Source: Bolinopsis microptera (lineage: Eukaryota; Ctenophora; Tentaculata; Lobata; Bolinopsidae). From it: DNA of 64,000 nucleotides. The notes under the pieces were generated by a model. It was given only the letters and a program-made list of their open reading frames with translations, was not told where the DNA came from and did no database searches. Position numbers and translations under genes: made by a program. Location of the stretch: positions 14,893,628-14,957,627 of the forward strand of contig NC_087075.1 in assembly GCF_026151205.1 (NCBI RefSeq). Reading direction: 5' to 3'. This document shows positions 1-48,493 of this stretch, piece after piece. Positions within the stretch are counted from its first letter, which is position 1. Each line of letters opens with the position of its first letter.

Positions 1-1543
1 TTGACTGCTTTTATCAGAGCAATGTGAATATGCTTTTCGATGTTAAATTGGAAGTGTGGCACAAAATAAGCTTTGATTAGGACTAGTTAAGATAAAATAT
101 TTTGATAACAAATTAAGTGCAATGTTAAATGCATACCGAATGAAAAATGAAATGACGAAACTAGATGTAGAAAGTAATTTATATCAATAGTTGAATTCTT
201 GTGTTGAGCCCTATCTAAATTATTATCATAATATGCTAGGTACTGATATCAGCGAGGAATTTTAACATGTATCGAGAACACAACGCTGAGGTGACGGAGA
301 AGCAAAGTGAAGCGGTTTAGTTTTTTCCTCTGTTGTAGATTGAAGAAGAGAAATGTACTTACAGAACGGTGGGCCGTGAGAGTTCACACAACTGTTCTAT
401 ACTCAAACTCAGAGATTCGATACAACTTAATAATAACAATTTCCTAACAGCCTTCATTTGAACTCAATTTTAATTGTAAGCACCTATAACATAGTAAGCT
501 CTATCTTTTAAGCTGCCTGTAAAGTTCCACTTAATTTCAGAGAACTAGACCTCTGTGACTTTGTATCAGTGGACAGTTTCTTATCCAGCTCGGTTGTTGA
601 ATGAGTACTGTTGACAAGACACGCAAACTCAAGCTCTCACCACCAAACCGGATATAGTGAACGGTGTTCTGTCAATTCTACAGGATATCAACAAGAATAT
701 GGTAGGTGATTTTCATTCGATTTAAAGACTAGTGACCACCATTACCTCTCATACAGAATATCTTTTTAGTATGAAATGTTTCAATGTGCTTTATTACCGA
801 ACTTATTTCCGTAGGTTTTCATCATAAAAAATACTTTAAATGATTGTGCCACTATTTTTAAACAAAAATACAGTTTTAAGGATTATCTGATAGTTTGATG
901 TTGTAACATTAAAAACAGGTGCCACAAGGAGTCATCCAGAGTGTTGAAAGAGTACGGTACATGGTGAAAGCGTGGGAGTCAAGGAGTAAACGCCTCCTCA
1001 TCAAGAGTGCAGTGCCTCCTGAAGAAGTGTGATATTGTCCGGGTGGTGGTCATACGGTTAACGAGGCAACCTTATTTTTAGGTGAGGTGGGTTATAAATT
1101 GTGCAGCCACGGGATTTTTAATGGTTTTTATTCTCTCATCCAGAGTTTTTGAGATTGAATAATACAATAATAAGTTTGCTCATAGCATAATCTCTGAAAA
1201 TCTTCTGTGCAATTCTAAGAAGAATTACGTGAGTTATTAAAGGTCGCGTATGGCAGTTACTTCTGGGCCACTCTGTATAATTGGGTAGCTCTGCAGTGTA
1301 GTCAGGGTCATACATTATAATTAAAAATATATTTAATTTAGCAGGGAGATAAATTATTAATCATCTCTTATTAACTGTCTAATTAACACAGTCTAATTAA
1401 AACACAGGACTGTACGCCGGTAGGGATGAAACACTTTCGGGAAACAGTAACCACGTACTCTTATTCCTCTGGACGCCAGGTCCACCTGTTAATATCCACC
1501 GATTAAGAAACAGGCTGCTAACGACTGAGATACCTTCCTTGGG
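1..1543 (+). CDS. PDCD11: RRP5/PDCD11-like N-terminal exons, unit 1 (5' partial)
   Basis: RRP5 is a nucleolar multi-S1-domain RNA-binding protein needed for pre-rRNA processing of both ribosomal subunits. In this unit I place the end of exon 2 at 1-19, exon 3 at 240-314, exon 4 at 542-701, exon 5 at 919-1081 and exon 6 at 1408-1543. Introns begin GT and end AG, allowing for read errors. The consensus of the seven units gives about 246 residues. Exon 2 reads KLSPGMLMLVFVSEVG and then LPNGLTGFIR (S1 domain 1). Exon 3 ends in an acidic EGDEEAEGEE. Exon 5 has YGYMVNVGVKGVTAFL (S1 domain 2). Exon 6 has LTPGHLVNITVKKQ (start of a third S1). Full RRP5 is about 1,800 residues, so most of the gene is absent. 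I found no start-codon exon. Confidence 0.75.
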
Positions 1544-1641
1544 GTATCCTGGTAGGGTACTCTTCCACTTAGGGACTGTTTTGGCTGGGGTGATGCAACG
1601 ACAATTAAGTCAGTATTCCATAAAAACCCCAAACTGACATT

Positions 1642-2358
1642 GACATTAATTGACATTAATTGACATTAAATTGACATTAATTGACATTAAATGACATTAA
1701 TTGACATTAATTGACATAATTCGATAAATTATTTCAAGATATTCACGTCTATGGTAAAGTTAGATCGGTTCAAAAAAACAAATATGTCCTTAAAAATTTA
1801 TATTATTTCTTATCTGTTGATCCTTAGTGTTTCAAAGACCAACCAAAAAAATTTTTCAGCTCCAACTCCTTCCATCTTCGGTCCCCACCCCCACCGCACC
1901 ATAGTTTATTGGTTTCTTATACAGGTAAAATATCTAGGAATCGGCTTTTTTTAGTAGAAGGAGTAAAGGTTAGCTGTTTTAAAATTCGTTATTACAAAAA
2001 TAAATGTCATGAAGGCATTTCGTTTACATGTGGGTTTAGTTCTGATGATGTTGAGAACCACGCCCCTTGGGATGGCCCAAGCCCATTTAAGAAAATTAAA
2101 TTTCGAAACCGTATTATTTTAGTTTTTATGTTTAATGATCTGAATTTTTTCACATTTCACATTTCAATGTGATAGGATGAATAAAATTGATGATATAAAC
2201 GTCTAAAGTTGCTAAAAATAGGAGAACTACATAATCTCTGTGCGATAAATAACAGTCAATTTAATGTCAGTAGTCCAAAATTTTGTCAAAACTGACATAA
2301 TTGACATTAATGGACATAGTTGACATTAATTGACATTAGATTGTACATTAATTGACGT
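1642..2358 (+). repeat. Paired TGACATTAAT arrays A and B, unit 1
   Basis: Two short arrays of a ~10-11 bp motif (TGACATTAAT, often written ATTAATTGAC) lie in the same orientation at 1642-1722 and 2293-2358. The same pair sits before the hAT-like element in every unit: 8825-8912 and 9490-9556; 16016-16098 and 16667-16729; 23178-23272 and 23843-23905; 30342-30421 and 30984-31050; 37500-37592 and 38147-38210; 44688-44767 and 45339-45406. The ~550 bp between them carries a consensus 55-codon ATG frame (around 2010-2175 in this unit) that matches nothing I know and may be chance. Confidence 0.85.
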
Positions 2359-2378
2359 GGCTTCCCCCTTTTGCTAGA

Positions 2379-3300
2379 TAGGAACCGACCGGTCTAAGGT
2401 TCTTTGGCTGCCGGACCAGAAAAGACCGGATATTCCCGGTTTGTCCGCATTTTTCCGGCCGAACCGGGTAATAAGAAGAAGAATTAAGCTCACGGAAATT
2501 GAGAATTAATCCTTGATTGATGGGTTTTATCAATTATAATATTAAAAGCCATGTGGACACAATGGAGAAAAGTGCTTACAGTCCGACTAACATGTTCACG
2601 CCTCTTATTTCAAAATTTCAACCAAACTCTGCTCTGTGAGCAGCAGTCACTTGATGATATTTTGTGGCGAGCAGTGCATAGGTCACTGATTGATCTGCTG
2701 TATGAGCAGAGCTAGAAACGAGTTGGAATAAATCAAAACATTGCAAGAATTCACTGCGCCTGCTATCACAAATGTAACAAATTGCTCAGTAGTAAAAGCC
2801 CAAGATCCAGCAGCCAGTGCAGCTCTATAAGTTCGTGGCGTCAATATAACGCGAGGATAATGGTCCAAAAAGATTTAATGGCATGATGGCCTTTGTTTAT
2901 CCTTGACATGTAAGGGGATTATCAACGGTTTGTTTACACAATAAAGCAGGGACCCTCTGGGGCTCTGCTTTGAAAGCTCATAAGTAAAGCATAAATGGTA
3001 GCTGTTTTGACTCTAACGCCACGTCAAAATCTCCGATCATCAACGGTCTTGAACATTCGCTGACAGATTACAGGCGACCGTGAGGCGTGGGAATTTACCG
3101 GTCACGAGAGCAATGGACTGGATGCCCCTTAGTAAGAATTTTGACAGAAATTTATACGATTTTAGGAACACGTCAAAAAAGAAATGGTCCTGTTGAATAG
3201 CCGGCAATTTTGAACCGGACCGAAAACCGGAACCGGAACGGAATTAAAGCCGAATATCCGGCTGAACCGGATTCTAGCCGATATCCGGTCAGTTCCCTCC
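2379..3300. mobile_element. Non-autonomous hAT-like DNA transposon, unit 1
   Basis: The ends are inverted repeats. The left end reads TAGGAACCGACCGG and the reverse complement of the right end reads TAGGAACTGACCGG. Both are followed by subterminal CCGGATATTCCGG-type motifs. In cleaner copies the element is bounded by the 8-bp direct repeat TGCTAGAG, the target duplication size of the hAT superfamily. The ~0.9 kb interior has no recognisable transposase, so it would need a partner in trans. In this unit the right boundary is blurred by read errors. Confidence 0.7.
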
Positions 3301-3972
3301 GATGGCTAGAAGGAGCTTTAATTCTACTAGTCCATGGAGATATTTCTTCTTCTTCTGGCTATTAAATAAAATTATACTTTTTTACTTAAAAACTTACTAT
3401 GTGTTATTTATCGCGATGTTTCTTTATTCACTACTAAATAAATCCCCGTTTGGAGACCCTGAATATCCTAACGAAAGGGCTCCGGTACACCTAATACATC
3501 TGAAGGACAATTGTACAACATTAAGAGTGTACTGGAGGTGGAGTACCCTCTAAACGCAAGTTAGCCGCCAGAGTCCTCCTCATTAACCCGAAACAAGGTG
3601 ATTTTTGTACCCTTTCCATGATGATGCGATAGGTTCAATTTTAGTAGATAAATTAAGGATTTACTGTGTGATAAGGTACACAATTCTCTACGGTAGCTAC
3701 TCACTAGAATATTGGTTAGAAGTTGTAAACATAATGTAACAGTGTAAATCATTGTAAATGTAATCAGTGTTACATGTCACGCAGTGTAAATCAATGCAAA
3801 TGTAACAGTGTTAATGTAACAGTGTTACAACTCTCCGACCGTGCTGTTGAGTACATTGAACTGCCATTAACCATGAGACACCCTGCTACCAACTAAAGAG
3901 GGGTGGATGTGGTGGAGGTTGTGGAAGGTGGTCATGGATACTATACGTGGGGTGTATGGTCTCCTTGAGACG

Positions 3973-5412
3973 TCAGTAGTCTGTACTTCAGTCAGTAGTC
4001 TGTAGTTTAGTCAGTAGCATGTAGTTCAGTCAGAAGTCTGTAGTTCCGTCAGTAGTCTGTAGTTCAGTCAGTAGCTTAGTTTCAGTCCGTAGTCTGTAGT
4101 TCAGTCATAGTCTGGTACTTCAGTCAGTAGTCTGTACTTCAAGTCAGTAGTTCTGGTAGTTCCAGTCATAGTCTGTATGTTCAGTCAGTATCCCCTGTAC
4201 TTCAGTCAGTATCTGTACTTCAGTCATAGTCCCCCCCCCCCCCTGTAGTTCAGTCAGTATCTGTAGTTCAGTCAGTAGTCTGTACTTCAGTTCAGTAGTC
4301 TGTACTTCAGTCAAGTAGTCTGTACAGCAGTCAGTAGTCTGAGGTTCATTCAGTAGTCGGTAGTTCGTCAGTAAGTCTGTACTCCATCAGTTGTCTGTAC
4401 ATCAGTCCAGTAGTCTGTAGTTCAGTCTGTAGTCTGAGTCAGTCAGTAGTCTGTTCTTCAGTCAGGTAGTCTGTACTTCAGTCAGTATCTGTATTCAGTC
4501 AGTAGTCTGTAGTTCAGTCAGTAGTCTCTGAGTTTAGTCAGTAGTCCTGTAGTTCAGTCAGTGTCTGTACTTCAAGTCATAGTCTGTACTTTCAGTCAGT
4601 AGTCTGTAGCTTCGAGTCAGTATCTGTACTTCAGGTCAGTAGTCGGAGTTCAGTCAGTAGTCTGTAATGTCATCAGTAGTCCTGTACTTCAGTCAGTAGT
4701 CGTACCTCAGTCAGTAGTCTGTAGTTCCAGAGTCAGTAGTCTGTACTTCAGTCCAGTAGTCTGTAGTTTGTCAGTACATGTCGTTCAGTCATAGTCTGTA
4801 GTTCAGTCAGTACTGTAGTTTCAGTCAGTAGTCTGTAGTTCATCAGTAGTTTGTAGTTCAGTCCCGTAGTCTGTACTTCAGTCAGAGTCTGTCTTCAGTC
4901 AGTATCTGTACTTCAGTCAGTAGCGCTGTCACTTCAGTCAGTAGTCTGATACGTCAGTCAGTAGCCTGTAAGTTCAGCTCCAGTAGTCTGGTACTTCAGT
5001 CAGTAGTTCCCGTAGTTTAGTCAGTAGCATGTAGTTCAGGCAGTAGTCTGTAGGTTCAGTCAGTAGTCTGTAGTTCAGTCAGTAGTCTGTAGTTCAGTCA
5101 GTATCTGTATTCAGTACAGTAGTCTGTACTTTTCAGTCAGTAGTCTGTACTCATCAGTAGTCTGTACTTCAGTCAGTAGTCTTGAGTTCAGTCAGTAGTC
5201 TGTAGTTCAGTCAGATAGTCTGTACTTCAGTCAGTATCTTACTTCAGTTCAGTAGTCTGTAGTTCAGTCAGTAGTCTAGTATCTTCGGTCCAGTAGTCTG
5301 TACTTCAGTCAGAGTCCTGTAGTTCAGTCAGTTAGTCAGAGTTCAGTCAGTAGTCCTGTAGTTAAGTCAGTAGTCTGGTAGTGTTTCAGGCAGTAGTCTG
5401 TACTTCAGTCTA
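3973..5412 (+). repeat. 19-bp minisatellite (CAGTCAGTAGTCTGTACTT), unit 1
   Basis: About 75 tandem copies of a 19-bp unit in which the fourth base from the end alternates between C and G (GTACTT or GTAGTT). A variant carrying GTAGCATGTAG occurs near the left end (about 4010) of every copy of this array. An artefactual run of 13 C lies at about 4231. No long open reading frame crosses it. Confidence 0.95.
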
Positions 5413-5547
5413 GTCAGTCTTTGATATATCACTTTATTACTTAATGCCGTGTATGAACTCGATACCTCATGCATGGTCAATATGAATGATAATGAACAAA
5501 AATGATATGTTTATCTCGTATAAATGATAGTGAATACGAAAGTTTTA

Positions 5548-5990
5548 GTTATTGATTGATTGCACGACCCCGAGGCAGTACTCTGCATTCACCCTTAAAA
5601 TGTTAATTACAAAATCAATTAAAGATATACACACATACATAAATATAGATAACACTATTAGGGAAATGAAAATAGTTCTTATCTCTACAATTACTTTAGA
5701 ACAGTAATACAGAGTCAGAAAGAATCTCACCGATATCTTATTCAGGAAAATGGCAGTGAAAATTGTTGGATGGCTGTGTAGCATTAGTAAAATACCTCGA
5801 AGATAGTCATATTCTTCTGCGATAAGAGATTGTGTTTCGTTGCTGTACTTGTCCCGCAACTTTTAATCACCCTGTTTATCACACTCCTAAACCTGGGCAA
5901 CGATAGCGACTGTGGATGTGGGTATTCGATTACCAAATATGTCACGTGAACATCTAAACAGTTTGTAATTAGTTTATGCACGAATATACA
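5548..5990 (-). mobile_element. Possible minus-strand retroposon 3' part, unit 1
   Basis: On the minus strand this stretch ends with a GCCTCGGGGTAGTGCA-like segment followed by short ATCA/CAAT repeats. This resembles the stem-plus-(ATCA)n end at 49,835-49,881. Upstream on the minus strand is a 50-100 codon open stretch, longest in unit 1, that recurs in all units but has no family match I recognise. The tail is only two to three repeats long, so this is a weak call. Equivalent places begin near 12,760, 19,895, 27,070, 34,225 and 41,405. Confidence 0.2.
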
Positions 5991-6214
5991 ACACCGAAAT
6001 CACTCCTGAGTATGCCTCAGATAGACTCTTTTGTAATTTTTGGCCTCGTCGATATCTGCTGTTGATTTTCATTCAGCATCGGTGTATTTTTCTTCACAAA
6101 TTTACACATAGTAGAACCAATTTGTCCGCGCCCAAATTTACCCTGAAAGCTGGCCGTGGTTTCGAGTGTGGATATTGATTAAATAACTGAATTCTTTAAA
6201 AATTGTATTTTCAG

Positions 6215-8734
6215 AAAGAAAAAGTAGAGCATATATCTCGGAAAATTCCATAGCCAAAAAGTCTAAAGATGATTCTATTCTGATCCTGGGAAAACCATTG
6301 AAGATCTTACATACAAGGAAACGATAAACACATTATTTGTTAGATTAGTAATATATTACTAGTGTAAACCCGGCCTACGGCCGGAATTTCACTTTCCGCA
6401 GTTAAAAAGGGTAGGAGTAATTACCCCGCTGAGTCAAAACCCCGGATAGGCGGCAAGTCAATTCGGAGTGCCCTCACGTATCCCAATATATTGCTTAAAA
6501 GATGAGTAATTCTTAATGAATAATCAATAGAATTAACCCTTAACCACACCATGCACCACACCAGCCTATCATATTTGTGACATGCATTACATTGTCGTAT
6601 GAAAGTATGAACTCTCTCTACAGAGTCCAAACAGACCGTTGAGCACGTCCCTCCCCTAATAAGTTTTTATAGTTGATATGACCCATGTAATATAAACCCA
6701 TGTAATATATACGCTACATATGCAGAGAGAGAGCTAGCCCCGTAAACTCTTGCCGTTCTTCTCAAGCCATTTTATTTAAAATATTTGGTGGTACAAAACA
6801 TCAATTTAAACCAAACCACTTACCACCGGCCGATTTTTATAAAATTGGCTTATTGGCTCGTCAGAGTTTTGTCGGCACTAAACCGGAAAAACCCGGGGGG
6901 AGTCCCGTAACTATTACCGTTTTTTTTGTATAACCGTTCGGTTCGAATTACACACAGACACACACACAGACACACACACAGACACACACACCTTCTGGTG
7001 TTATTAAGTTGATAATACACTTGCTATGAACCTGACCTTTGATCGTCTCATTGGCACAAATCCAAAATATCACTCTCTAGACATCATATTAATTGTGGAT
7101 ATTCTGTTTTTAGAAACTTCCCCTGGTAGCTGCATGCTCGTGTTTGTTTCTGAAGTTGTTGAGGTTGATGTGGTAGTGAACCTGCCCAACGGATTGACTG
7201 GCTTTATCAGAGGTAATGTAATATGCATTCTAATGTAAATTGTATTGTGGCACCGAAATAAGCTTGGAATTAGATCTAGCTAAGATAAAATATTTTGTTA
7301 ACAAATAAGTGCAATGTTAAATGCATAACGAATGAAAAATGAAATGAAAAAGAAACTAGATGTAGAAGTAATTTATTACAATATTGAATTCTTGTGTTGA
7401 GCCATACTAAAATTATCATATATGCTAGGTACTGATATCAGCGAGGAATTTTAACATGTTATCGAGACAACGCTGAAAGGTGACGAGAAGCCAGAAGGTG
7501 TAGAGGTTAGTTTCCTCTGTTTGAGAAGTTGAAGAAGAGAAATGTAAACGTACAGAACGTGGGCGTGAGGAGTTCACCACACTGTTCTATACTCAAACAC
7601 AGAGATCGATACTAAATTAATCATAACAATTTCCTAAACACCTTCTTTTGAACATCAATTTATAATGTAAGCCGACCTTTAACTTAGTATCTCTATTCTT
7701 TAAGCCCTGTAAGTTCCACTTAATTTCAGGAACGAGACCGCTGTGACGTTGTAATCAGTGGTACAGTTCTATCCTGCTCGGTGTTCGATTGTAGTTACTG
7801 TTGACAAGACACGCAAACTCAACCTCACCACCAAACCGGAGATAGTGAACGTTCTGTCAAGCAACAGGATAGACAACAGAATATGGTAGTGATTTCATTC
7901 GATTTAAAGACCTAGTGACCACACCTTACCTTCTTCATAAGAATATCTTTTTTTATGTATGAAATGTTTTTCAATGTTGCTTTATTAGCCTGGAAACCGT
8001 ATTTTCCCGGTAGGTTTTCATCTTAAAAATACATTACATGATTGTGCCACTATTTTAAAAACAAAAATACAGTTTTAGGATTAACTGATAGTTGAAGTTG
8101 TAAACATTAAAAACAGGTGGCTACAAGGAAGTCCTCCAGGTGTTGAAGATTACGGGTACATGTGAATCGTGAGCAAGGAGTAACAGCCTTCTCAACAAAG
8201 TGCAAGTGCCTCCTGCAGAAGGTGATATTGTCCGGGTGGTGGTCAGTAACGTAACGATGGGCAACCGTATTTTAGTGAGTGTGTTATAAATTGTGCAGCC
8301 CCGGGGGATTATTAAAGTGTTTTTTATTTCTCTATCCAGAGTTTGAGATTGAATAATACAATAATAAGTTGACTCATATCTATAATCTCTGAAATTTTGT
8401 GCAATTCTAAGAAGAATTACGTGAGTTTATTAAAGGGTCGCGTATGGGCAGTTACTTTCTGGCCACTCGTATAATTGGGTAGGCTCTGGCAGTGTAGTCA
8501 GGGTCATACCTTTATATTTAAAATAGTTTTAATTTTAGCAGAATAAATTATTAATCATCACTTATTAACTGTCTAGATTAACACCGTCTAATTAACACAG
8601 GACTGTACGCGGTTAGGGATGAAAGCACTTTCGGAGAAAACATAGACCACGGTCTCATCTCTGACGCCAGGCACCTTGTTAATATCACCGTTAAGAAACA
8701 GGCTGCTAACGGACTGAGATGTACCTTCTTGGGG
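6215..8734 (+). CDS. PDCD11: RRP5/PDCD11-like N-terminal exons, unit 2
   Basis: First complete six-exon set: 6215-6317, 7114-7212, 7429-7505, 7730-7885, 8117-8275 and 8601-8734. Exon 1 follows TTTTCAG and encodes a lysine-rich leader (KEKVEH, then SKDDSISDLGKPLEDLTYK). It ends AAG before an intron whose donor is damaged here (GAAACG instead of GTAAACG). Exon 2 is the best preserved of all units and reads through the whole first S1 strand region. Phases run 0, 1, 0, 0, 1 across the five introns. The exon 5 donor has lost a G (TTTAG then TGAGT), which matches single-base read error. No upstream exon with the family's usual N-terminal FPRGG motif was found inside the unit. Confidence 0.85.
6362..6990 (+). 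mobile_element. Retroposon-like insertion in RRP5 intron 1, unit 2
   Basis: The block opens with the GC-rich inverted repeat CCCGGCCTACGGCCGGG, within otherwise AT-rich intron DNA. It ends about 0.6 kb later in a simple tail of ACACACAGAC repeats (6948-6990). A structured GC-rich head and a short-tandem-repeat tail suggest a SINE or a truncated non-LTR element inserted in the gene's orientation. I see no coding capacity and could not define a target duplication through the read errors. Confidence 0.4.
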
Positions 8735-9581
8735 GTATCCTGGTAGGTACTCTTCCACTTAGGACGGTTTGCTGTGGGTGATGCAACGTCAATTAAGGTC
8801 AGTAATTCCCTTAAAAACCCAAACGACATTGACATTAATTGACATTAAGTGACATTTAATTGACATAAATTGACATTAATTGGACATTAATTGACATAAT
8901 TGACATTAATTCGATAAATATTCCAAGATATTCACGTCTATGTAAGTTAGATCGGGTTCAACAAAAAACAAAATGTCCTTATATAATTATGAGTATGTTC
9001 TATCTGTTAATTCCTTAGTTCAAAGAACGACCAAAAAAATTTCAGCTTCCAACTCGTCCACCTTCGTCCCCACCGGCCACGCCGCATTATTTTTATTGGT
9101 TTCTTATACAGGTACAATATCTAGGAATCGGCCTTATTTTTAGTAATGAATGGTGAGTAATGTTACTGTTAAAATTCGTTTATTCAAAATAAATGTCCTG
9201 AAGGCATTTCGTTTAATGTGGGTTTTTTTAAGTTCTGATGATGTGAGGAACCACCCCATGGATGCCAAGCCCATTTAAAGAAAATTAAATTTCGGGGAAC
9301 CGTATAATTTTAGTTTTATTGTTTATTGATCAGAATCTTTTCACATTTCACATTTCCATATGTGATAAGTATGAATAAATTGAGATATAAACGTTCTACA
9401 ACTAGAAGGCTAAAAAAAAATGGTAGAATCTACATATCTCTGTCGAAAATATCATGTCAATGTAATGTCAGTATTCAAAATTTTGCAAAACTGACATTAT
9501 TGACCCATTAATTTGACATTAATTACATTAATTGACATAATTGACATTAATTGACGTTGCATTCCCCCCCGTTTGCTAGAG

Positions 9582-10504
9582 TAGGAACGAACCGTCTTAA
9601 AGGTTTTTGGCTGCCGGACCAGAAAAGCCGGATATTCCGGTTGTCGTCATTTTCCGGGCCTGAACCCGTAATCAGTAAGAAGATATTAAGGCTGCCGAAA
9701 TTGAGATAATCCTTGATTGTGGGTTTTATCAATTATAATATTGAAAAGCCATGTGGAACACAATGAGAGAAAGAAAGTCTTTACAGTCCGACAACTTGTC
9801 ACGGCCTATTCAAAATTTCAACCAACTTCTGCGCTGTAGCAGCATCACTTGTTGATAGTTTGTGCGAGCATGCAGAGGTCACTCACTGATTGGATCTGCT
9901 GTATGAGCAGCGCTAGAAACGAGGTTGAATAAAAATCAAAACATTGCAAGAATTCACTGCGCCTTGCCTAGAACAATGACAAATTGCTTCGTAGTAAGCC
10001 CAAGATCCCAGCAGGCCAGTGCAGCTCTTATTAAGTTCGTGGCGTCAATATATCCGAGGATAATTCCAACGTTTTTAATGGCGATATGGCCTTTGTTTTT
10101 TATCCTTGACATGTAAGGGGAGTTAGCAAGGTTTGTTTACCACAATAAAGCGGACCCTCTGGCTCTGCTTGAAATGCTCATAAGAAAAGCATAAAATGGT
10201 ACTAGTTTTGACTCTAACCCACTCAAAAATCTCACAACAACGGGTCTTGAACATTCGCTGACAGATAACAGGCGACGTGGAGGCGTGGAATTACCGGTCA
10301 CTGGTAGGCAAGGGCGACTGGATGCCCCTTAGTAAGAATTTTGACATAATATCAACATTTTAGGAAAACTAAAAAAGAAATGTCCTGTTGAATATCCGCC
10401 AAATTTTTGGAAACCGGACCGAAACCGGAACAGAACCGGAGATTAAAGCCGAATATCCGCTGGGAAGAAAACCGGGATTCAGCCGGTAATCGGTCAGTTC
10501 CCTA
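9582..10504. mobile_element. Non-autonomous hAT-like transposon, unit 2
   Basis: Clearest boundaries in the array. The direct repeat TGCTAGAG lies at 9574-9581 and again at 10505-10512, immediately outside TAGGAAC and its complement GTTCCTA. Length is 923 bp. Confidence 0.8.
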
Positions 10505-11149
10505 TGCTAGAGAGCTTTATTTTCTACGATGGTCCATGGAGATATTTCTCTTCTGGCTATTAAATATATTTACCTTGTTGTACTTAAAACTTACTATGTG
10601 TTTATTTTAATCGCGATGTTCTTTTTATTCACAACTAATTAATCCCCGTTGCCTGAATATCCCTAAGCAGTCCCGTACACCTAATACATTCTAAGGACAT
10701 GTACAACAGTAAGATGTACTGAGGTGACACTGCTCACGCAAGTTTAGCCGCCAGAGTCCTCCTCATAAACCCTGGAAAACAGGTGGAGTTGTACCCTGTC
10801 TGATGATGCTATAGTTCCTTTTAGTAGATAAATTAAGGATTTAACTGTGTGATAAGGAACACCAATTTCTACTGTAGCTACTCCACTAAATATTTGGTAG
10901 AAGTTGTAAACATAATGTAACAGTGTAAATCTTTGTAAATGTAACAGTGTAAATGTAAACATGTAAATCATTGCAAATGTAACAGTGTTTATGTAACCAG
11001 TGTTACCACTCTCAGACAGTGCTGTGAGTACATTGAACTGCCATGTAACCATGAGACACCCTGCTACCAACTAAAGAAGGTGATTGTGGTGGAGAGTTAG
11101 GTTCAGGGTTACTAAGCGTGGGGTGTAGTCCTCAACTTGTGATGACGGT

Positions 11150-11984: not shown

Positions 11985-12021
<37 letters not shown>

Positions 12022-32002: not shown

Positions 32003-32669
32003 TGCTAGAGAGCATTATTTCTACTATGGTCCATGGAGAATAGTTCTCGTCGTGGCTATTAAATATATTAACTGTGTTTACTTAAAAAACTTACTATTGT
32101 TATTTATCGCGATGTTTACTTTTATTCACAACTAAATAATCCCCGTTTGACCCTGATATCCCTAAAACAGGGGCTCCGTACACCTAATACATCTGAAGGA
32201 AATGTAACAACAGTAAGAATGTAACTGGAGGTGTAAACCCTGCTAAACGCAAGTTATCCGCCAGAGTCCTCCTCATTAACCCTGAATACAAGGTGAGTTG
32301 TTACACCGTCTTTGCTGATTGCAATATCATTTTAGTAGATAAATTAGAAGGATTTACTGTGGATAAGAGTACACAATTCTCTACTGTTAGCTCTCACTAG
32401 AATATTTGGTTAGGAAGTTGTAAACATAATGTAACAGTGTAAATCATTGTAAATGTAACAGTGTCAATGTAACAGTGTAAATCATTGCAAATGTACAGTG
32501 TTAATGTATACAGTGTTACAACTCTCAGACAGTGCTGTTGAGTATCATTGAACTGCCATGGTCCAAGTGGAGAACACCCTGCTACAACTAAAGAAGGGTG
32601 ATGTGGTGAGATGTGGAGGTGGGTCAGGGTTACTCAAACGGTGGGGTGTACGTCTCACTTGATGACGGT

Positions 32670-34897: not shown

Positions 34898-37405
34898 AAA
34901 AAAAAGTAGAGCATATATTCTGTCTGGAAAAATCCATGTAGCCAAAAGTCTAAAGATGATTCTATTTCTGATCTGGAAAACCATTGGAAGATCTTACATA
35001 CAGGTAAACGATAAACACATTTATTTTAATTATATCATATTACTAGTGTAACCGCCTACGCCGGGATTCATCCACTGCGCAGTTAAAAGGTAGGAGTAAA
35101 TACCCGCTGAGTCTAAACCCGATTAGGCGAAGCAAATTCTATCGGAGTGCCCTCACGCGATCCAATAGTAAGCTTAAAAGATAGAAATTCTTAATGAATA
35201 ATCAATAGAATTTAAACCCTTAACACCATGCACCACACCAGCCTACATATTGTGAACCATGCATTACATTGTCGTATGAAAAGGATGAACTCCTCTATCA
35301 GTCAAACAGACCGATTGAGCACACCCTCCCCTAATAAGTTTTATAGTATTATAGTGACCATGTAATAATACGCCATGTAATATAACCTACATAGGCAGAG
35401 AGAGAGCTAGAGCCCCGTAACTCTGCCGTCCTTCTCAAGCCATTTTTAATGTAACATATTTTTGTACAAAACCATCATTAAACCACTTACCAACCGGGGC
35501 CGATTATTTATAAAATTTGCGTATTGGCTTCGTCATAGTTTTGTCGGCACTATATCCGAAAAAACCATCCCGTAACCTATTACCGTTTTTTTTGTATAAC
35601 CGTCGGAAATTACACACAGACACACACACAGAACACACACACAACACACACAAACATTCTGGTGTTTATACGTTTTGATAATACACTTGCTATGACCTGA
35701 CCTTTGTATCGTCTCATTGGCACAAACCAAAATATCACTCTCTAACAACATATTAAATGTGGATATTCCTTTTTTTTTAGAACTGTCCCCTGGTATGCGG
35801 ATGGCTCGGTGTTGTTCTGAAGTTGGTGAGTGATGTGTAGCGAACCTGCCCAAAGGATTGACTGGCTTTATCAGAGGTAATGTGAATATGCTTTTCAATG
35901 TTAAATTGTAAATTTGTGGCACCAAATAAGCTTTAAATTAGATCTAGCTAAGATAAATATTTTGATAACAAATAAGTGCAAATGTTAAATTGCAATACCG
36001 AATGAAAAATGAAATGAAGAAACTATATTTAGAAGTAATTTATATCAATAATGAATTCTTGGTTGAGCCATTATCTAATTATTATCATTAATATGCTAGG
36101 TACTGATATCAGCGAGGATTCAACAGTGTTATCGAGAACAACGCTGAAGGTGACGAGGAAGCAGAAGGTGAAAGGTTAGTATCCTCTTTTGTAGATTTGA
36201 AAAGAGAAATGTACTTACAGAACGGTGGGCGTGAGAGTTCACCACACTGTTTCAATACTCAAAACTCAGAAGATTCGATACTTAAATTAATCATAACAAT
36301 TCCCTAAACTCCTCTTTTGAACATCAATTTAATAATGTAAGCCACCTATAACCTATATCTCTAAATTCCTTTTAAGCTCCTGTAAGTTCCACTTATTTCA
36401 AGGAACTAACCTCTGTGACGTTGTACAGTGGGACAGTCTTATCCCTGCTCGGTGTTGATTAGTTACGTTGACAAGACACGTCAAACTCAACCTCACCACC
36501 AAACTCGGAGATAAGTGAACGTTTTCTGTCAAGCAACAGGATATCAACAAGAATATGTAGGTGAATTTCATTCGATATTATAAGGGACTAGTGGACCACC
36601 TAACCTTCTTCATAAGATATCTTTTTTAGTATGAACTGTTTCAATGTTGCTTTATCGCCGAACCTATTTCCGGTAGGTTTTCATCTTAAAATACTTTTTA
36701 AATGATTTGTGCCCACTAGTTTAACCTAAAATACAGTTTTAGGATTAACTGATAGTTGAAGTTGTAACATTAAAACAGTGCTACAAGGAGTCATCCAGAG
36801 TGTTGAGAGTACTGGTACCTGGTGAACGTGGGGAGTCAAGGGAGTAACAGCCTTTCCTCACAAGAGTGCAGTGCTACCTGAAGAAGTGTGATATTGTCCG
36901 GGGTGTCAATACGGTTAAGCGATGGCAACCTATTTTAGGTGAGGTGTGTTATAAATTGTTGCAGCCCCGGGGATTAAAAAGTGTTTTTATTTCTCTCTTC
37001 TCAATTGAGATTTGAATAATACAATAATAAGTTTTTTGGACTCAATCCATAATCTCCTGAAATTTTCTGGCAATTCTAAAAGAATACGGTTGCAGTTATT
37101 AAGGTCGCGTAATGGGCAGTTACTTCTGGGCCACTCTGTTAATTGGGATAGCTGCTGGCAGTGTAGTCAGGGTCATACATTATAATTAAAATATGTTAAT
37201 CTACAGGGAGATAAATTATTAGTCATCTCTTATGTAACTGTCTAATCTAACACAGTCTAATTAACACAAGACTGGTACGCGGTAGGGATGAAAGCACTTT
37301 CGGGAGAAAACAGTAAGCCAACGTTCTCTTCTCTGACGCCAGGTCACTTGTTAATATCACCGTTAAGAAACAGCGCTAACGGACTGAGATGTACCTTCCT
37401 TGGGG
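34898..37405 (+). CDS. PDCD11: RRP5/PDCD11-like N-terminal exons, unit 6
   Basis: Exons at 34898-35003, 35781-35876, 36100-36174, 36403-36557, 36779-36938 and 37271-37405. Exon 2 retains GGATTGACTGGCTTTATCAG with an intact GAGGTAATG donor. Exon 3 shows GTTATCGAGAACAACGCTGA followed by the acidic stretch, and its donor is GGTTAGT. Exon 6 is one of the cleaner copies and carries the TGTACCTTCCTTGGG end. Confidence 0.85.
35050..35655 (+). mobile_element. Retroposon-like insertion in RRP5 intron 1, unit 6
   Basis: The head is shortened by errors (ACCGCCTACGCCGGG); the tail is at 35608-35655. Confidence 0.35.
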
Positions 37406-38236
37406 GTATCTGGTAGGTACTCTTCCACTTAGGGACTGATTTGGCTGGGGTGATGCAAACGTCAATTAATGTCATATTTCCATAAAAACTCAACCCCAAA
37501 CTGACATTGACATTAATTGACAATTAATTGACATTAATGACTTAATTGACATTAATTGACATTAATTGACATTAATTGAACATATATTCGATAAATATTC
37601 AAGATATTCACTCTATGTAAGTTAGATCGGTTCAAAAAAACAAAATGTCCTTAAATAATTATGAGTATGTTCTTATCTGTTTGAACCCTCTTAGGTTCAA
37701 AGACCACCAAAAAAATTTCAGCTTCCAACTCTTTCCAATCTCGTCCCCACCGGGCCACGCCCCATATTTTATTGGTTTCTTATACTTAAAATATCTAGAA
37801 TCGATCGGCTTTTTTAGTATGAAGAGTAATTTTAGGCTGTTTAAAATTCGTTTTCACAAATAAATGTCTGAGGGCATTTCTTTTAATGTGGGTTTTAAGT
37901 TCTGATGATGTTGAGAACACGCCCTTGGATGCCAACCCATTTAAGAAATTAAATTTCGGAAAACGTATTATTTAGTTTATTGTTTTAATGATCTGAATTT
38001 TTTTACATTTCACATTTCCATATGTGATAGAGTGAATATATTGATGATATAAACGTTCTAACTGCTAAAAATATGTAGAACTACATAATCTCTGGTCGGA
38101 AAAATATCATGTCAATTAATGTCATATTCCAAAAATTTTGCAAAACTGAACATTAATTGACATTAAGTTGACTAATGACATTAATTACATTAATGTGACA
38201 TTAATTGACGTTGCATGTCCCCCCGTTTTGCTAGAG

Positions 38237-39175
38237 CGGAGGAACCGACTCGGTCTAAGGTTTTTGGCTGCCGGACCAGAAAAGACCGGATATTCCGGTT
38301 TGTCGCATTTTTCCGGGCCGGAACCGGTAATAAAGAAATTTTTATAAGGCTGCCGGAAAATTGAGATTAATCCTTGATTGTGGGTTTTATTCAATTATAA
38401 TTTAAAAGCCATGTGAACACAAATGAGAAAGTGCTTACCAGTCCGATCGACTAACTGAGTCACGCCTATTTTCAAATTTCAACCAAACTTCTGCGCTGTG
38501 AGCAGCAGGTCACTTGTGATATGTTGTGCGAGCAGTGCAGAGGTCACTGAATTGATCTGCTGTATGAGCAGAGCAAGAAACGAGTTTGGAATAAAATCAA
38601 ACATTGCAAGGAATTCAATGCGCCTTGCCCTACGGACAAAGTGTACAAAGTGCTTCAGTAGTAAAGCCAAGATCCAGCAGCCGTGGCAGCACTTATAAGT
38701 TCGTGCGTCATATAACCGAGGAAATGGTCCAAAGTTTTTAATGGCATGATGGGCCTTTGTTTAATCCTGACATGTAAGGGGAGTTAGCCACGGTTCTGTT
38801 TACCAACAATAAAGCAGGACCCTCTCGGCTCTGCTTGAAATGCTCATGAAGTAAAGCATAAATGGTAGCTGTTTTGACTCTAACACCCACGTCGAAAAAA
38901 TCTCACATCACGGTCTTGACATTCGCTGACAGAATAACAGCGAACCTGTGGAGGCGTGGAATTTACCGTCACTGAGAGCAATGGACCTGGATGCCCCTTA
39001 GTAAGAATTTCTGACAGAAATATTAACATTTTATGAACACTTAAAAAAGAAATGTCCTGTTGAATATCCGGCCAAATTTTTGAAACTGCCGGACCGAAAC
39101 CGAACCGGAACCGGAGATTTAAAGCCGAAATATCCGGCTGGAACCGGATTCAGCCGAATATCCGGTCAGTTCCTA
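38237..39175. mobile_element. Non-autonomous hAT-like transposon, unit 6
   Basis: TTGCTAGAG precedes the left end, which has one inserted GC pair (CGGAGGAACCGAC). GTTCCTA followed by TGCTAGAG closes the right. Length is about 939 bp. Confidence 0.75.
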
Positions 39176-39827
39176 TGCTAGAGGGAGCTTTATTTCTACT
39201 ATGTCCATGAGAATATTTCTTCTTCGGCATTAAATTATATTAACTGGTTTACTAAAAACTTACTATGTTATTTTTAATCGCGATGTTTCTTTTGCACAAC
39301 TAAGTAATCCCCGTTTGAGTCCCTGAATATATCCCTACAGGGCTCCGTACAATCTAATACATCTGAAGGACATGTACAACAGTAAGAGTGTTACTGGAGG
39401 TGTACCCGCTAAACGCAAGTTAAGCTCGCCAGAGTCCTCCTCATTAACCCTGAAACCAAGGTGAGTTGTACCCTGTCTTGATGATGCTATAGTGCATTTT
39501 AGTAGATAAATTAAGGATTTACTGTGTGATAAGGTACACAATTTCTCTACTGAGCTACTTCACGAGAATATTGGTTAGTATTGTAAACAATGTAACAGTG
39601 TAAATCATGTTAAATGTATACAGTGTAAATGTAACATGTAAACATTGCAAATGTAACAGTTGTTTAATGTAACAGTGTTACAACTCGTCAGACAGTGTTT
39701 TGAGTACAATGAACTGCCAATGTAACCATGAGCAAACCCTGCAACCAACTAAAGAAGGTGATGTGGTGGAGGATGTGGAGTGGGTCAGGGTTACTAAAGC
39801 GTGGTGTATGTCTCACTGATGAACGGT

Positions 39828-41261
39828 CAGTAGTCTGAACTTCAGTCAGTAGTCTGTAGTTTAAGTCAGTAGCATGTAGTCAGTCCAGTAGTCCTGTATT
39901 TCAAGTCAGTAGTCTGTAGTTCAGTCAGTATTCTGTAGGTCAGTCAGTAGTCTGTAGTTCAGGTCAGTAGTCTTGGATACTTCAGTCAGTATCCTGTACT
40001 TCAGTCATGTAGTCTGTAGTTGTCAGTCAGTAGTCTGTAGTTCAGTCAGTAGTCTGTACTTCAGTCAGTAGTTCCCGGTACTTCAGGTCAGTAGTCTGTA
40101 GTTTCAGTCAGTAGTCTGTAGTTCAGTCAGTAAGCTGTACTTCAGTCAGTAGTCTGTACTTTCAGTCAGTAGTCTGTACTCCGTCAGTATCTGTAGTTCA
40201 GTCATAGTCTGTAGTTCAGTCAGTTGTCAGTACTCCAGTCAGTAGTCTGTACTGTCAGTCATTATCTGTAGTTCAGTCAGTAGTCTTGTAGTTTCAGTCA
40301 GTAGTCTTACTTCAGTCAGTAGTCTGTACTTCAGTCAGTAGTCTGTAGTTCAGTCAGAAGTCTGTAGTTCAGTCAGTAGTCCTGTAGTTTAGTCAGTAGT
40401 CTGTAGTTCATCAGTAGTCTTACTTCAGTCAGAGTCTGTACTTCGTCAGTATCCGGTACTTCAGTCAGTAGTCGTACTTCAGTCAGTAAGTCTGTAGTTC
40501 AGTCAGTAGTCTGTACTTCAGTCAGGGAGCTGAACTTCATTCAGTATCTGTACTTCATCGTAGTCTGGTAGTTCAGTCATAGTCTGTACTTCAGTCAGTA
40601 GTCTGTAGTTTATCAGTAGCATGAGTTCAGTCAGTATCTGTAGATCAGTCAGTAGTCTGTAGTTCATCAGTAGTCTGTAGTTCAGGTCAGTAGTCTGGCA
40701 GTTCCAGTCAGGTAGTCAGTACTTCTCAGTCAGTAGTCTGTACTTCAGCAGTAGTCTGGACTTCAGTCAGTATCTGTACTTCATCAGTATCTGTACTTCA
40801 GTCAGTAGTTCCCCCCACTGTTAGTTCCAGTCAGTAGTCTGTCTTCAGTCAGTAGTCCTGTAGTTTATCAGTAGCATGTAGTTCCGTCAGAAGTCTGTAG
40901 TTCATCCAGTAGTCCAGAGTTCAGTCCAGTAGTCTGTAGTTCAGTCAGTAGTCTGTAGTTCAGGTCAAGTAGTCTGTACTTCAGTCAGTAGTCTGTACTT
41001 CAGTCAGTATGTCTGTACTTCAGTCCAGTAGTCTGTAGTTCAGGTCATTATCTGTATTCAGTCAGTAGGTCTGTACTCAGGCAGTAGTCTGTACTTCAGT
41101 CATAGGACTGTAGTTCATCAGTAGTCTGTAACTTTCAGTCAGTAGTCCCTGTACTTCAGTCAGTAGTCCTGAGTTTCAGCAGTAGTTCTGTAGTTTCCAG
41201 TCAGTATCTGTAGTTTAGTCCCATTAGTCTTAGTTCATCAGTAGTCTGTAACTTCAGTCCT
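39828..41261 (+). repeat. 19-bp minisatellite, unit 6
   Basis: Same array; a short CCCCCC artefact lies at about 40,811. Confidence 0.95.
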
Positions 41262-42068
41262 AGTCTGTCTTTATATCACTTGTATTACTACTGCCGTGTA
41301 TGACCTCGAGACCTCATTCTATGGGTCTAGATGAAAGATAATGAACAAAAACGTGAATATGATTATATCGTAACATGATAGTGAATACGAAAGTTTTAGT
41401 TAATGATGGATTGCACGACCCGAGGCAGTACTCCGGCATAACGCCTATAAAAAATGTTTAATTACAATCAATTTAAAAGATATACACAACATACATACAT
41501 ATAGATAACACACTTAGGGGAATGCAAAAGGTTTCTTATCTCTTACATAATTTGAACGTAATACAGATCTGAAAGAATGTCACAGATACTTATCAGGAAA
41601 ATGGCAGTGAAATTGTGGATGCGTGTAGCATTGTAAAATACCTCGAAAATAGTCATATTTCGTTTCTGGCGATAAAAGTTTTGTGTTTCGTTGCTGTACT
41701 TCCCGCAAACTTTAATCACACCTTTTAACACACTTCCTAAACCTCTGGCAACGTAGCGACTGTGGAGTGTGGGTATTCTGATTACCAAATATGTCACTGA
41801 ACATCTAAAACAGTTTGAAAGTAGTATAGCACGATATTAAACACCGAAATCAACTCCTGAGTAATGCCTCAGAATAGACTCTTTGTAATTTTTTGGCTCG
41901 GTCGATATCTGGTCTGTGATTTTCATCATTCAGCATCGGTGTAGTTTTCTGCAAATTTACACATGATAGAACCAATTTGTCCGCGCTCAAAATTTACCTG
42001 AAAACTGGCCGAGTTCTGAGTGTGGATATTGATTAAATAAAGGAATTCTTTAAAAATTAGTATTTCAG

Positions 42069-44583
42069 AAAGAAAAAGTAGAGCAAATATTCTCGGAAAA
42101 ATCCATAGCCAAAAAGTCGAAAGATGATTCTATTACCTGAATCTGGGAAGAACCATTGGAAGATCTACACACAAGGTAAACATAAACAATTTATTGTTAA
42201 TTATATAATAATTATAGTGTAGACCCGGCTACGCCGGGATTTCACTGCCGCATTAAAAAGGGTAGGAGTAATTACCCGCTGAGTCAAAACCCGGATTAGG
42301 CGAGCAATTCTTTCGGAGTGCCCTCAACGTATCCAATAGTTAGCTTAAAAGATAGTAACTTTCTTAATGAATAATCAATAAAATTACACCTTAACACCAT
42401 GCACCACACCAGCCCTATCATATTTTGTGAACATGCTTTACATTGTCGTATGAAAGAATGAACTCTCTCTACAGTCCAAACAGAACCGTTTTTGAGCACT
42501 GCCCGGTCCCTACTAAGTTTATAGTATTATATGACCATGTAATATATACGGCCCATTAATATATACGCTACATATGCAGAGAGAGAGCTACCCCGTTAAC
42601 TCTTGCCGTTCTTCATCAAGGCATTTTATGTAACATTATTTTGTGGTACAAAACCATCAATTAAACCACTTACCACCGCCGATTTTTTATAAAAATTTGC
42701 TTATTGGCTTCGTCAGAGTTTTGTCGCAACTAAACCGAAAAAACCAGTCCCGTACTATTACCGTTTTTTTTGTATAACCGTTCGGAAATTACACACAGAC
42801 ACACACATACATACACACACACCGACACAAACCACATTCTGGTGTTATTAAGTTGATTAATACACTTGCAGACCGGACCTTTGTATCGTCCATGGCACAA
42901 ATCCAAAATATCACTCCACTCTAACAACATATTAATGTGGATATTCTGTTTTTTAGAAACTGCCCCTGGTATGCTGAAGCTCGGTGTTGTTTCTGAAGTT
43001 GGTGAGGTTGGATGTGTATGAACCTGCCAAGGGATTACTGGCTTTTATCAGAGGTAATGTGAATATGCATGTTCTATGTTTAAATTGTATGAGTGGCACC
43101 AAATAAGCTTTTGAATAGATCTAGCTAAGATAAAAATAGTTTGATAACAAATTAAGTGCAATGTTAAATGCAACCGAATGAAAAATGAAATGTAGACACT
43201 AATGTAGAAGTAATTTATATCAATTTTGATTCTGTGTTGAGCCCATATCTAATTATTACATAATATGCTAGTACTGAAATCCCGAGAATTTAAACAGTGT
43301 TACGAGAACTAACGCTGGAAAGTGACGAGGAAGCAGAAAGGGTGAAGGGTTAGTTTCCCTCTGTTGTAGATTTGAAGAAGAGAAATGTACTTACAGAACG
43401 TGGCGTGAGAGTTCACCACACTGTTCTATACTCAAACTCAGAGATTCGAACTAAAATTAATCATAACAATTTCCTAAACAGCCTCCATTTGAACATCAAT
43501 TTATAATGTAACCACTATAACATAGTATCTCTATGCTTTAAGCTCCTGTAAGTTCCACTAATTCTAGGACTAGACTCTGTACGTTGTATAAGTGGGCAGT
43601 TTCTTATCCTGCTCGTTGTTGATGTAGTTACTTGTTGACAAGACACGCAACTCCAACCTCACCACCAAACCGAATAGTGAACGTTTCTGTAAGCAAACAG
43701 ATATCAACAAGATATGGTAGGTGATTCATTCGATAAGGACTAGTGACCACCTTACCTCTTCATAAGAATATCTTTTTTAGTATGAAATGTTCAATGTTGC
43801 TTATATTAGCCCGAACCCTTAAAATTCCGGTAGGTTTTCCGTCATCTTAAAATCTTTTAAATGATTGTGCCACTATTTTTTAAACAAAAATACAGTTTTT
43901 AGGATTATCTGATATTGAGTTGAAACATTAAAAACAGGTGCTACAAGGAGTCATATCCAGAGTGTTTGAAGAGTACGGGTACATGGTGAACGTGGGTCAA
44001 GGGAGTAACGGCCTTCTCAACAAGAGTGCTGTGCTCTGAAGAAGTGTGATATGTCCGGGTGGGTGGTCAATACGGTTACTATGGGCAACCTTTTTTTTTT
44101 TGTTTTTTTTTATTTTAGTGAGAGTGTGTTATAAATTGTGGCAGGCCCGGGGATTGATTAAATTGTTTTATTTCTCTCTCCCAGAGTTTGAGATTAATAA
44201 TTACAATAATAAGTTTGACTCATATCTATAATCTCCTGAACGTTCTGTGCAAGTCTGAAGAAGAATTACGTGAGTTATTAAAGGGTCGCGTAATGGGCAG
44301 ATAACTTCTGGGCCACTGTATAATTGGGTAGCTCTGGCAGTGTATCAGGGTCAAACATTTATTAATAAAATATTTAATTTTAGCAGGGAGATATATTATT
44401 AATCATTCTTATTAACCTGTCTAATTAACACAGTCTAATTAACACAGGACTGTACGAGCGGTAGGGAAATGAAAGCCTTTCGAGAAAACAGTAACCACTT
44501 CTCTTCTCTGACGCCAGTCACCTTGTTAATAATCACCGTTTAAAAACAAGGCTGCTAACGGACGAGATGTACCTTCCTTGGGG
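42069..44583 (+). CDS. PDCD11: RRP5/PDCD11-like N-terminal exons, unit 7
   Basis: Exons at 42069-42175, 42957-43053, 43272-43348, 43568-43715, 43938-44118 and 44448-44583. This is the last copy before the array ends. A T-rich insertion (44,092-44,112) sits near the end of exon 5, where the other units read AACCTTATTTTAG. Exon 1 and its donor (AAGGTAAAC) and the exon 2 donor (GAGGTAATG) are intact. No continuation into RRP5 exons beyond exon 6 appears between here and the array end. Confidence 0.85.
42221..42836 (+). mobile_element. Retroposon-like insertion in RRP5 intron 1, unit 7
   Basis: The head is reduced to CCCGGCTACGCCGGG; the tail at 42788-42836 has ACACATACATAC substitutions. Confidence 0.35.
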
Positions 44584-45431
44584 TTAGTCCAGGTAGGGTA
44601 CTCTTACCACTTAGGGACTGTTTTGCTGGGGTGATGCAACGCCAATTTTAATGTCAGTATTCCAATAAAAACCCCAAATCTGACATTGACATTAATTGAC
44701 ATTTAATTGACATTAATTGACATTAAATTGACATTAATTGACATTAAGTGACATTAATTACATTATTCGATAAATATTCAAGAATGCACGTCTATGTAAG
44801 TTAGATCTGTTCAAAAAACAAAAATGTCCTTAAATAATTAGAGGTATGTTTCTTTATCTGTTGAGTCCTTAGTCAAAGACCACCAAAAAAAAATTTTCAG
44901 CATCCAAATCCAACTCTTCCGATCTTCGTCCCCGACCGGCCACGCCCATATTTATTGTTTTCTTATACAGTAAAATATCTAGAATCGGCTTTTTTGTAGT
45001 ATGAAGGAGTACTGTTAGCTGTTTAAAATTCGTTATTCAAAATAAATGTCAATGAAGGCATTTCGTTTAATGTGGTTTTTAAGTTCTGAATGATGTTAGA
45101 ACCACGCCCTTGGATGGCCAAGCCCATTTAAGGAAAATTAAATTTCGGGAAACCGTATTATTTTATTTATTGTTTAATGATCTGATTTTTCCCACATTTC
45201 ACATTCACAAATGTGATAGGTAGTGAATAAATTGATGACACAAAACGTTCTAAAGTGCTAAAATATGGTGTAAACTACTAATCTCTGGTCAAAAATATCA
45301 TGTCAATATATGTCAGTATTCCAAAAATTTTGCAAAACTGACATTAATTGACATTAAATGTCATTAATTGACATTAAATTGCATTCATTGACATGTAATT
45401 GACGTGCATTCCCCCCGTTTTTTGCAAAGAG

Positions 45432-46365
45432 AAGGTAACCGACTCGGTCAAAGGTTTTGCGGCTGCCGGACCAAAAAGACCCGATATATTCCCGGTTGTC
45501 GCATTTTTCCGGGGCCGGAACCGGGGTACTAAGACGAAGATATATAAGGCTGCCGAAAAGATTGAGATATCCCTTGATTGTTGGGGTTTTATCAATTAGT
45601 AATATTAAAAGCTGTGGACACAAGAGAAAGTGCTTAACAGTCCGACTAACTGTGTTCACGCCCTATTTCAAATTTCAACCAAACTTGCTGCTCTGGAGAG
45701 CAGCAGTCACATGTTGAATATGTTGTGGCGAGCAGTGCAAGAGGTCACTGATTGATCTCTGTATGAGCAGAGCTCGAAACGAGTTGGAATAAAATTCAAA
45801 CTTTGCAGAATCACTGCGGCCTTGCCTAGGCACAATGTACAAATTGCTTCAGTAGTAAAGCCCAAGATCCAGCAGCCAGTGCAAGCTCTTATAAGTCGTG
45901 CGCGTCAATATAACCGAGTATATGTCCAAAGTTTTTAATGGCCATGATGGACTTTGTTTATAATCCTTGACATTAAGGGGAGTTAGCACGGGTTTTGTTT
46001 TACCAAAAGAAAGCAGGGACCCTCTGGGCTCTGCTTGAAATGCTCATAAGTAAAGCATCAATGGTAGCTGTTTTGACTCTCACCCACTCAAAAATCTCAC
46101 ATCCAACGGGTCTGAACATTCGCTGAAGATAACAGGCGACCGTGGAGGCGTGGAATTTACCGTCACTGAGAGCAATGGACTGGATGCCCCTTAGTAAGAA
46201 TTTGACAGAAATATTATACATATTTAGGAACACTTAAAAAAGAAATGTCCCTGTTGAATATCCGTCCCAAATTTTTGAAACCGTACCGAAACCGGAACCG
46301 GAACCGGAGATTAAAGCCGAATTTCCGCATGGAAGGATTCAAGCGGAATATCCGGTCAGTTCCTA
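45432..46365. mobile_element. Non-autonomous hAT-like transposon, unit 7
   Basis: The left boundary is damaged (TTGCAAAGAGAAGG). The right boundary GTTCCTA followed by TGCTAGA is clear. Length is about 934 bp. Confidence 0.75.
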
Positions 46366-47035
46366 TGCTAGAAGGGCTGCTTTATTTCTACTATGGTCCA
46401 TGGAGATATTTCTTCTTCTGTGGCTATTAAATATATTTCCTTTTTACTTTAAAAACTGTACTATGTGTTATTCAATCGCGATGTTTCTTTTATTCACAAC
46501 TAAATAATCCCCGTTTGACCCTGATATCCCTAACAGGCCCGTACACCTAATACATCTAAGGACATGTACAACAGAAGAGTGTACTGGAGGTGTACCCTGC
46601 TAACGCAAGTTAGCCGCCAGAGTCCCTCCTCATAAACCCTGAAAACAATGTTGGCGTTGGTAACCTTCTTGAATGATGCTATAGGTTCATTTTAGGAGAT
46701 AAATAAGGATTTACTGTGTGATAAGGTTCAACAATTCTCTACTGTAGCTACTCACTAGAATATTTGCTAGAATTTGTAAACCATAATGTAACAGTGTAAA
46801 TCATGGTAACAGTGTAACAGTGTAATATGTAAGACAGGTAAATCATTGCAAAATGTAACAGTGTAATGTAACAGTGATACAACGCTCAGACATTGCTGTT
46901 GATTAAATTGAACTGCCATGTAACCATGGAAGACACCCTGCTAGCCAACTAAAGAAGTGGTGATGTTGTGGAGGATAGTGGGGAGGTGGTCAGGGTTTAC
47001 TAAACGGGGTGCATATTTCTCACTTGAGAAAACGG

Positions 47036-48463
47036 TCAGTAGTCCCTTACTTCAGGTCAGTAGTCGTAGTTTAGTCAGTAGCATTAGTTCAGGTCAGTAG
47101 TCTGTAGTTCAGTCATAGTCTGTAGTTCAGTCAGTAAGTCTGTAGTTTCTTTCAGGTAGTCCTGTAGTCAGTCAGTATCCTGTACTTCAGTCCCAGTTAT
47201 CTGTACTCAGTCAGTAGTCTGTAGTTCATCAGTAGTCTGTAGTCAGTCAGTAGCGTACTGTATTCAGGTCAGTAGTGCTGTACTTCAGTCATAGTCTGTA
47301 TTTTCAGTCAGTAGTCCTGAGTTCAGTCAGTAGTCTGTACTTCAGTCAGTATCCTGTACTTCATTCAGTAAGTCTGTAAATTCAGTCAGTAGTCGTAGTT
47401 CAGTCAGTAGTCCGTGTAGTTCAGTCAGTAGTCTGTAACCAGTCAGTAGTCCTGTACAGCAGTCAGTAGTCTGTAGTGTCAGTCAGGATCTGTAGTTCAG
47501 TCAGTAGTCTGTACTCAGGCCGTAGTCTGTACTTCAGCAGTTAGTCGTAGTGCAGTCAGTAGTCTGTAGTATCAGTCAGTAGTCTGTAGTTTAGTCAGTA
47601 GTCTGTAGTTCAGTCATAGGCTGTCCCTTCAGTCAGTAGTCTGTACTTCAGTCAGTAGTCTGTACTCAGTCAGTATCCTGTACTTCAGGTCATGGTAGTC
47701 TGTAGTTCAGTCAGTATCGTACTTCCAGTCAGTAGTGTCTTATCACATCATAGTCTTGTACTTCATCAGTAGTCTGTAGTTCAGTCAGTAGTCTGTACTT
47801 CAGTCCGTAAGTCCGTAGTTTAGTCAGTAGCATGTAGTTCATCCATAGTCTGTAGTTGCAGTCAGTAGTCTGTAGTTCAGTCAGATAGTCCTGTAGTACA
47901 GTCAGTAGTCTGTATTCAGTCAGCAGTCTGTACTTCAGTCAGTATCTGTCAACTTCATCAGTAGTCTGACTTCCAGTCAGTAGTCAGTACTTCAGTCAGT
48001 AGTCTGTACTTCCAGTCAGTAGTCTGTTAGTTTCAGTCGTAGTCCCTGTACTTCAGTCATAGTCTGTAGTTTAGTCAGTACATGTATTGCAGTCAGTAGT
48101 CTGTAGTTCAGTCAGTAGTCTGAGTTCAGTCAGTAGTCTGTAGTTCAGTCAGTAGTCTGTAGTCAGTCAGTAGTCTGTACTTCAGGCAGTAGTTCTGTAC
48201 TTCAGTCAGTAGTCTGTACTTCAGTCAGTAGTCTGTATTCAGTCAGTAGTCTGTTAGATTTCGTCAGTAGTCTGTACTTCAGTCAGTAGTCTGCACTTCA
48301 GTCAAGAAGTCCTGTAGTCAGTCATAAGGTCTGTACTTCAGTCAGTAGTCTGTACTTCCGTCAGTAGTCTGTAGTTCAGTCAGTAGTCTGTAGTTCAGTC
48401 AAGGAGTCTGTAGTTTAGTCAGTAGTCCCTGGTAGTTCAGTCAGTAGTCTGTTACTTCAGTCT
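47036..48463 (+). repeat. 19-bp minisatellite, unit 7 (last of array)
   Basis: Full-length array followed by the usual CTTTATATCA junction. The flank then diverges from the unit consensus within about 20 bp, marking the right end of the 7.17 kb array. Confidence 0.95.
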
Positions 48464-48493
48464 AGTCCAGTCCTTTATATCAATTTATTACTA

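Follow-up and report, generated by a model that had tools for sequence, protein, structure and literature searches.

Does a ctenophore chromosome carry a long tandem array made of one piece of a housekeeping gene? In the reference genome of Bolinopsis microptera, chromosome 4 (C4) contains many head-to-tail copies of the 5′ part of RRP5 (PDCD11), which encodes an S1-repeat ribosome biogenesis factor. We analysed a stretch of 64,000 nucleotides that includes part of this array (C4:14893628-14957627; hereafter the window) and searched the genome (264.65 Mb). With a probability of about 95%, window positions 1-48496 are a slice of an uncorrected PacBio continuous long read (CLR) lying between two corrected contigs, and slices also lie on chromosomes 11, 5, 3 and 1 (C11, C5, C3 and C1). 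The array is almost certainly not true chromosome 4 sequence. The observations behind this reading are the raw-read error pattern of the units, the exact reuse of slices across chromosomes, flanks of corrected sequence and the presence of only one clean copy of the unit, in RRP5 on C11.

The array and its parent gene

Direct copies of a unit of 7.1-7.2 kb, spaced by about 7.17 kb, fill window positions 1-48496 on the forward strand. They amount to five whole units (5889-41738, with starts at 5889, 13095, 20226, 27404 and 34568) and two partial ones, in agreement with the original prediction, which had at least seven direct copies ending at 48493. The first, partial unit (1-5888) continues to the left of the window as far as C4:14824568, an extension of 69 kb; the whole block is C4:14824568-14942123 (117,556 bases), of which the window holds part. 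The last, partial unit (41739-48496) ends just beyond the 19-bp minisatellite that occurs once per unit and is about 1.4 kb long (the last of seven in the window is at 47035-48462). The seam to ordinary corrected sequence follows, and this right flank, to which no strand is assigned, occupies 48497-64000. The five whole units were 84.1-85.4% identical to one another in 10 of 10 pairs.

A clean copy of the unit was found at C11:3063170-3070283, inside the RRP5 gene on a chromosome other than that of the array; each whole unit of the window is about 90% identical to it. We surveyed copies by the unit's first 430 bases and scored 40 of 111 candidates. One of these was clean (at C11:3063170). The other 39 were 89-94% identical to the 430 bases, and are located on C4 (15), C5 (10), C1 (5), C11 at 14.29-14.34 Mb (5) and C3 (4). 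The original prediction had missed this parent on another chromosome, as well as the 84-85% identity of the units and the leftward extension. A real tandem duplication adjoining the parent gene, as it had proposed, is ruled out, because the parent is on C11, the array is on C4 and slices are also on C11, C5, C3 and C1.

The clean C11 locus contains S1/OB domain exons of RRP5. A frame downstream of the clean unit matches Rrp5 in the PDB (3e-43), and the next exon beyond the unit matches OB_RRP5_4th (5.5e-9, above the curated cut-off). The unit ends 4 bases before this exon, at a putative splice acceptor, and the exon is therefore outside the unit. The unit carries 5′ exons of RRP5, as had been predicted. 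Two S1 domains and the start of a third had been assigned to it; Pfam support within the unit is weak, with matches to S1 models that fall short of the curated cut-off (7.4e-5 and 0.014) in two of the four exon-bearing frames scanned and no match in the other two. The clean copy (C11:3063170-3070283) also contains, at unit positions of about 455-1105, a dispersed repeat that is young and some 650 bases long; it is found on many chromosomes and is 94-99% alike in the copies listed.

The differences between units look like those of raw reads

Eighteen units (15 from C4, two from C3 and one from C11 beyond the shared slice) were aligned to the clean copy. The difference was about 9% per unit, made up of about 2% mismatch, 3.3% deletion and 4% insertion, with ranges over all 18 units of 1.6-2.5%, 3.0-3.5% and 3.4-4.7%, respectively. 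Errors in PacBio CLR data follow the same order: insertions first, then deletions, then mismatches. The transition/transversion ratio was 0.146 in 16 units and 0.167 in two. Same-strand deletions removed G at 63.6 per kb versus C at 15.8 per kb, a strong strand asymmetry. Mutation over time does not yield such low transitions and such asymmetry. The error rate was uniform over the length of the unit (7.9-11.5% across 29 bins), with exons, introns and minisatellite alike. At each of the four exon cores, none of the 18 units was free of deletions, which argues against the truncated S1 proteins that had been suggested as products of the locus.

The units of a tandem array should be distinguished by inherited variants held in common. 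This was not seen among the 18 units, where sharing was near chance: substitutions common to one, two and three units numbered 1987, 191 and 13, versus 2067, 164 and 9.6 expected for independent events. The dispersed repeat provided an internal control, since its copy in the array was 87-89% identical, and its copy in the clean unit 94-99% identical, to the full-length genome copies listed. Relative to the clean copy, the unit differences are sequencer-like, as would be the case for a raw insert, and their pattern fits errors of PacBio CLR reads.

The same noisy sequence is present at other loci

C4:14824568-14856725 and C11:14292376-14324533 (reversed) are the same 32,158 bases with 0 differences. 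Likewise, C5, C3 and C1 share an identical locus of 5,809 bases, although adjacent units differ by 15%, and four sets of three equal-scoring matches on these chromosomes point the same way. Identical noisy letters, errors included, at several places in the genome are the mark of a raw insert. The raw-read blocks outside C4 are C11:14292376-14337167 (the array ends at 14337167), C5 from before 11558000 to 11639825, C3 from 1050678, and C1 at about 4986327-5016307. By our own addition, the five blocks sum to about 297 kb, with C5, C3 and C1 entered as lower bounds. Their seams fall at differing phases of the unit. No exact match of at least 120 bases links the examined C4/C11 pieces with the examined C5 and C3 pieces, and therefore the slices stem from two reads or more, or else from two stretches of a single longer read. 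If one read underlies both the C4 and the C11 block, its length is at least 130 kb. Shortly before the block on C11 there is a satellite that repeats about every 64 bases (C11:14284503-14288334).

Seams and flanks

The left flank of the C4 block ends in a dispersed repeat that is 98-100% identical to 11 of 11 copies listed, right up to the seam. The start of the right flank recurs at C4:14704447, upstream of which other sequence replaces the array. This second copy aligns with 12 gap openings in 1954 columns, versus 325-381 in the whole-unit alignments for C4, C3 and C11, which rules out a second raw read and makes the copy a second haplotype or a duplicate in corrected form. Its upstream part shares with the unit one repeat of about 570 bases, 98.4% identical to the clean copy. 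The array and its corrected flanks meet in a flush seam, as is typical of a raw insert.

The right flank is present twice on C4 (window 48497-51000 versus C4:14704447-14708999), about 237 kb apart and with 91-96% identity, which reflects either a haplotype left unpurged or a segmental duplication. Further into the flank, the window contains an 18-bp tandem array (50253-50649; 22 copies at 97%, unit GTCACGTGACTGGTAAAT), a direct repeat (53760-57839) whose copies are spaced about 4040 bases apart, with many shared 24-mers and the same 20-mer pair, and two 37-bp tandem arrays with differing units (57932-59022 and 60271-61460; about 29 and 32 copies).

How the slices may have entered the assembly

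According to the methods part of the assembly paper, PacBio CLR data from a Sequel II were assembled with wtdbg v2.4 and HiRise, and TGS-Gapcloser v1.1.1, Purge Haplotigs and Pilon with short reads were also applied (PMC10232365). We infer that TGS-GapCloser, in closing gaps, filled no fewer than five places with slices taken from one or two raw reads. A long tandem read rich in minisatellite might chain loosely to many contig ends, although this is a guess. Short-read polishing would have left the slices unmended, because short reads from RRP5 would fit the clean C11 copy better.

Several observations weigh against this reading. In the published outline of TGS-GapCloser, candidates must align on both flanks of a gap and are corrected before use (PMC7476103). 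The insert does not follow this rule of anchoring on both flanks, and it is uncorrected; thus, both the tool and the exact step are only inferred. Neither C4 flank is similar to the unit at E 1e-3. A search for a repeat common to flank and unit, by which a read could have been anchored, gave none at the C4 seams; the only flank-unit matches were one of 28 bases in the left flank on C3 and repeat matches of 74-76% in the left flank of the C11 parent. Four substitution columns are common to four or five units, slightly in excess of the 0.4 expected. In addition, most units depart from the C11 copy in 14 columns (three of them at unit ends) and by one insertion. A few real differences therefore exist. 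Finally, the error at the junctions between units was 7.4% (16 sites), slightly below that of the controls (mean 9.0%, range 8.0-11.1%; 16 windows), although the junctions were not clean.

What the raw read may have recorded

The joins between units bear on the source of the read. Fifteen junctions show CTTCCTAAACC or noisy forms of it, and the triplet CTA is common to both unit ends. We estimate the chance of a match of at least 3 bases in random joins at about 5%. These junctions are one and the same head-to-tail join, as in copies of a circle. A circle, whether cellular or formed in library preparation, may have closed at the 3-base microhomology CTA, and a polymerase could then have run round this 7.1 kb circle without adapters to give a head-to-tail read, a step of which we are less certain. 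Copies that run on the same strand for more than 100 kb, none of them inverted, are expected from a polymerase on an adapter-less circle, and library inserts above 100 kb would be unusual. Our best guess for the source is such a circle of either origin, with a real array second. Concatemers from a 7.2 kb circle had been among the original proposals; as an account of the C4 locus this one fails, and it survives as the best guess for the source of the read. That the read records a real circle of 7.1 kb, or a real tandem array of the first RRP5 exons, in the animal is a tentative idea with the odds against it. If true, part of a housekeeping gene, joined at a 3-base microhomology, would be replicating or amplified.

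Alternatively, the C4 locus may be an assembly error whose read sampled a real tandem array in the chromosomes of the animal, probably in one haplotype and close to RRP5 on C11 or within it. Such a source would explain why pure head-to-tail units extend over about 130 kb (C4 plus C11, provided that one read accounts for both) and over 82 kb or more on C5, and why the majority sequence is slightly unlike the C11 copy. It is unlikely, given that all 39 other scored copies reach only 89-94% and that no clean unit-to-unit junction was found: the exact 39-base junction pattern had 0 matches genome-wide (the intact border pattern had one, as expected), a result that speaks only against a clean copy, as most noisy copies would miss the exact pattern at raw-read error. 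We are equally doubtful that the slices were inserted at contig construction, scaffolding or manual curation instead of gap closing. The C4 flanks, without the similarity to the unit that read-spanning gap closing should need, speak for such a step. On the other hand, that one read should recur in several places is to be expected of a gap closer but not of consensus contigs, and the methods part of the assembly paper names a gap closer that uses raw reads (PMC10232365). Lastly, an old, real amplification of 5′ RRP5 on chromosome 4, with mutated copies and large slices recently copied to C11, C5, C3 and C1, would account for the assembled head-to-tail array and, through recent segmental duplication, for the exact slices, but it is all but ruled out by an error spectrum that is indel-dominated, strand-asymmetric, transversion-rich and even, by star-like variant sharing, by decay of the embedded repeat only within array copies and by seams at different unit phases.

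The insertion of raw-read slices during assembly is thus the reading that we retain. The original prediction had listed an assembly artefact among its options, and for the locus, with its raw-read errors and exact slices on several chromosomes, this was right; its biological options for C4 fail. In the public Bolinopsis microptera reference, some 300 kb spread over five chromosomes is then read noise, which would yield false partial RRP5 copies, false segmental duplications and false synteny links among C1, C3, C4, C5 and C11. The assembly has served chromosome-scale gene-linkage work, and we make no claim that published conclusions are altered. The C4 stretch and the blocks on the other four chromosomes should be masked, which is easy once they are known, and not taken as biology.

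Comparison with known systems

Rolling-circle long reads of extrachromosomal circular DNA contain many head-to-tail copies on the same strand, with one junction and a short microhomology there. The array resembles them in all these respects; the circle itself, however, is here only a candidate. As with raw long-read inserts that gap-closing software such as TGS-GapCloser can leave behind, where one read can serve several gaps, read-quality sequence lies flush between corrected contigs with no Ns, whereas the tool as published corrects its candidates and demands anchors on both flanks, and here there is no visible anchor and no correction (PMC7476103). In comparison with RRP5 itself, the array has only the 5′ piece, its frames broken by read errors, whereas the clean C11 locus runs on into the downstream exons that match Rrp5.
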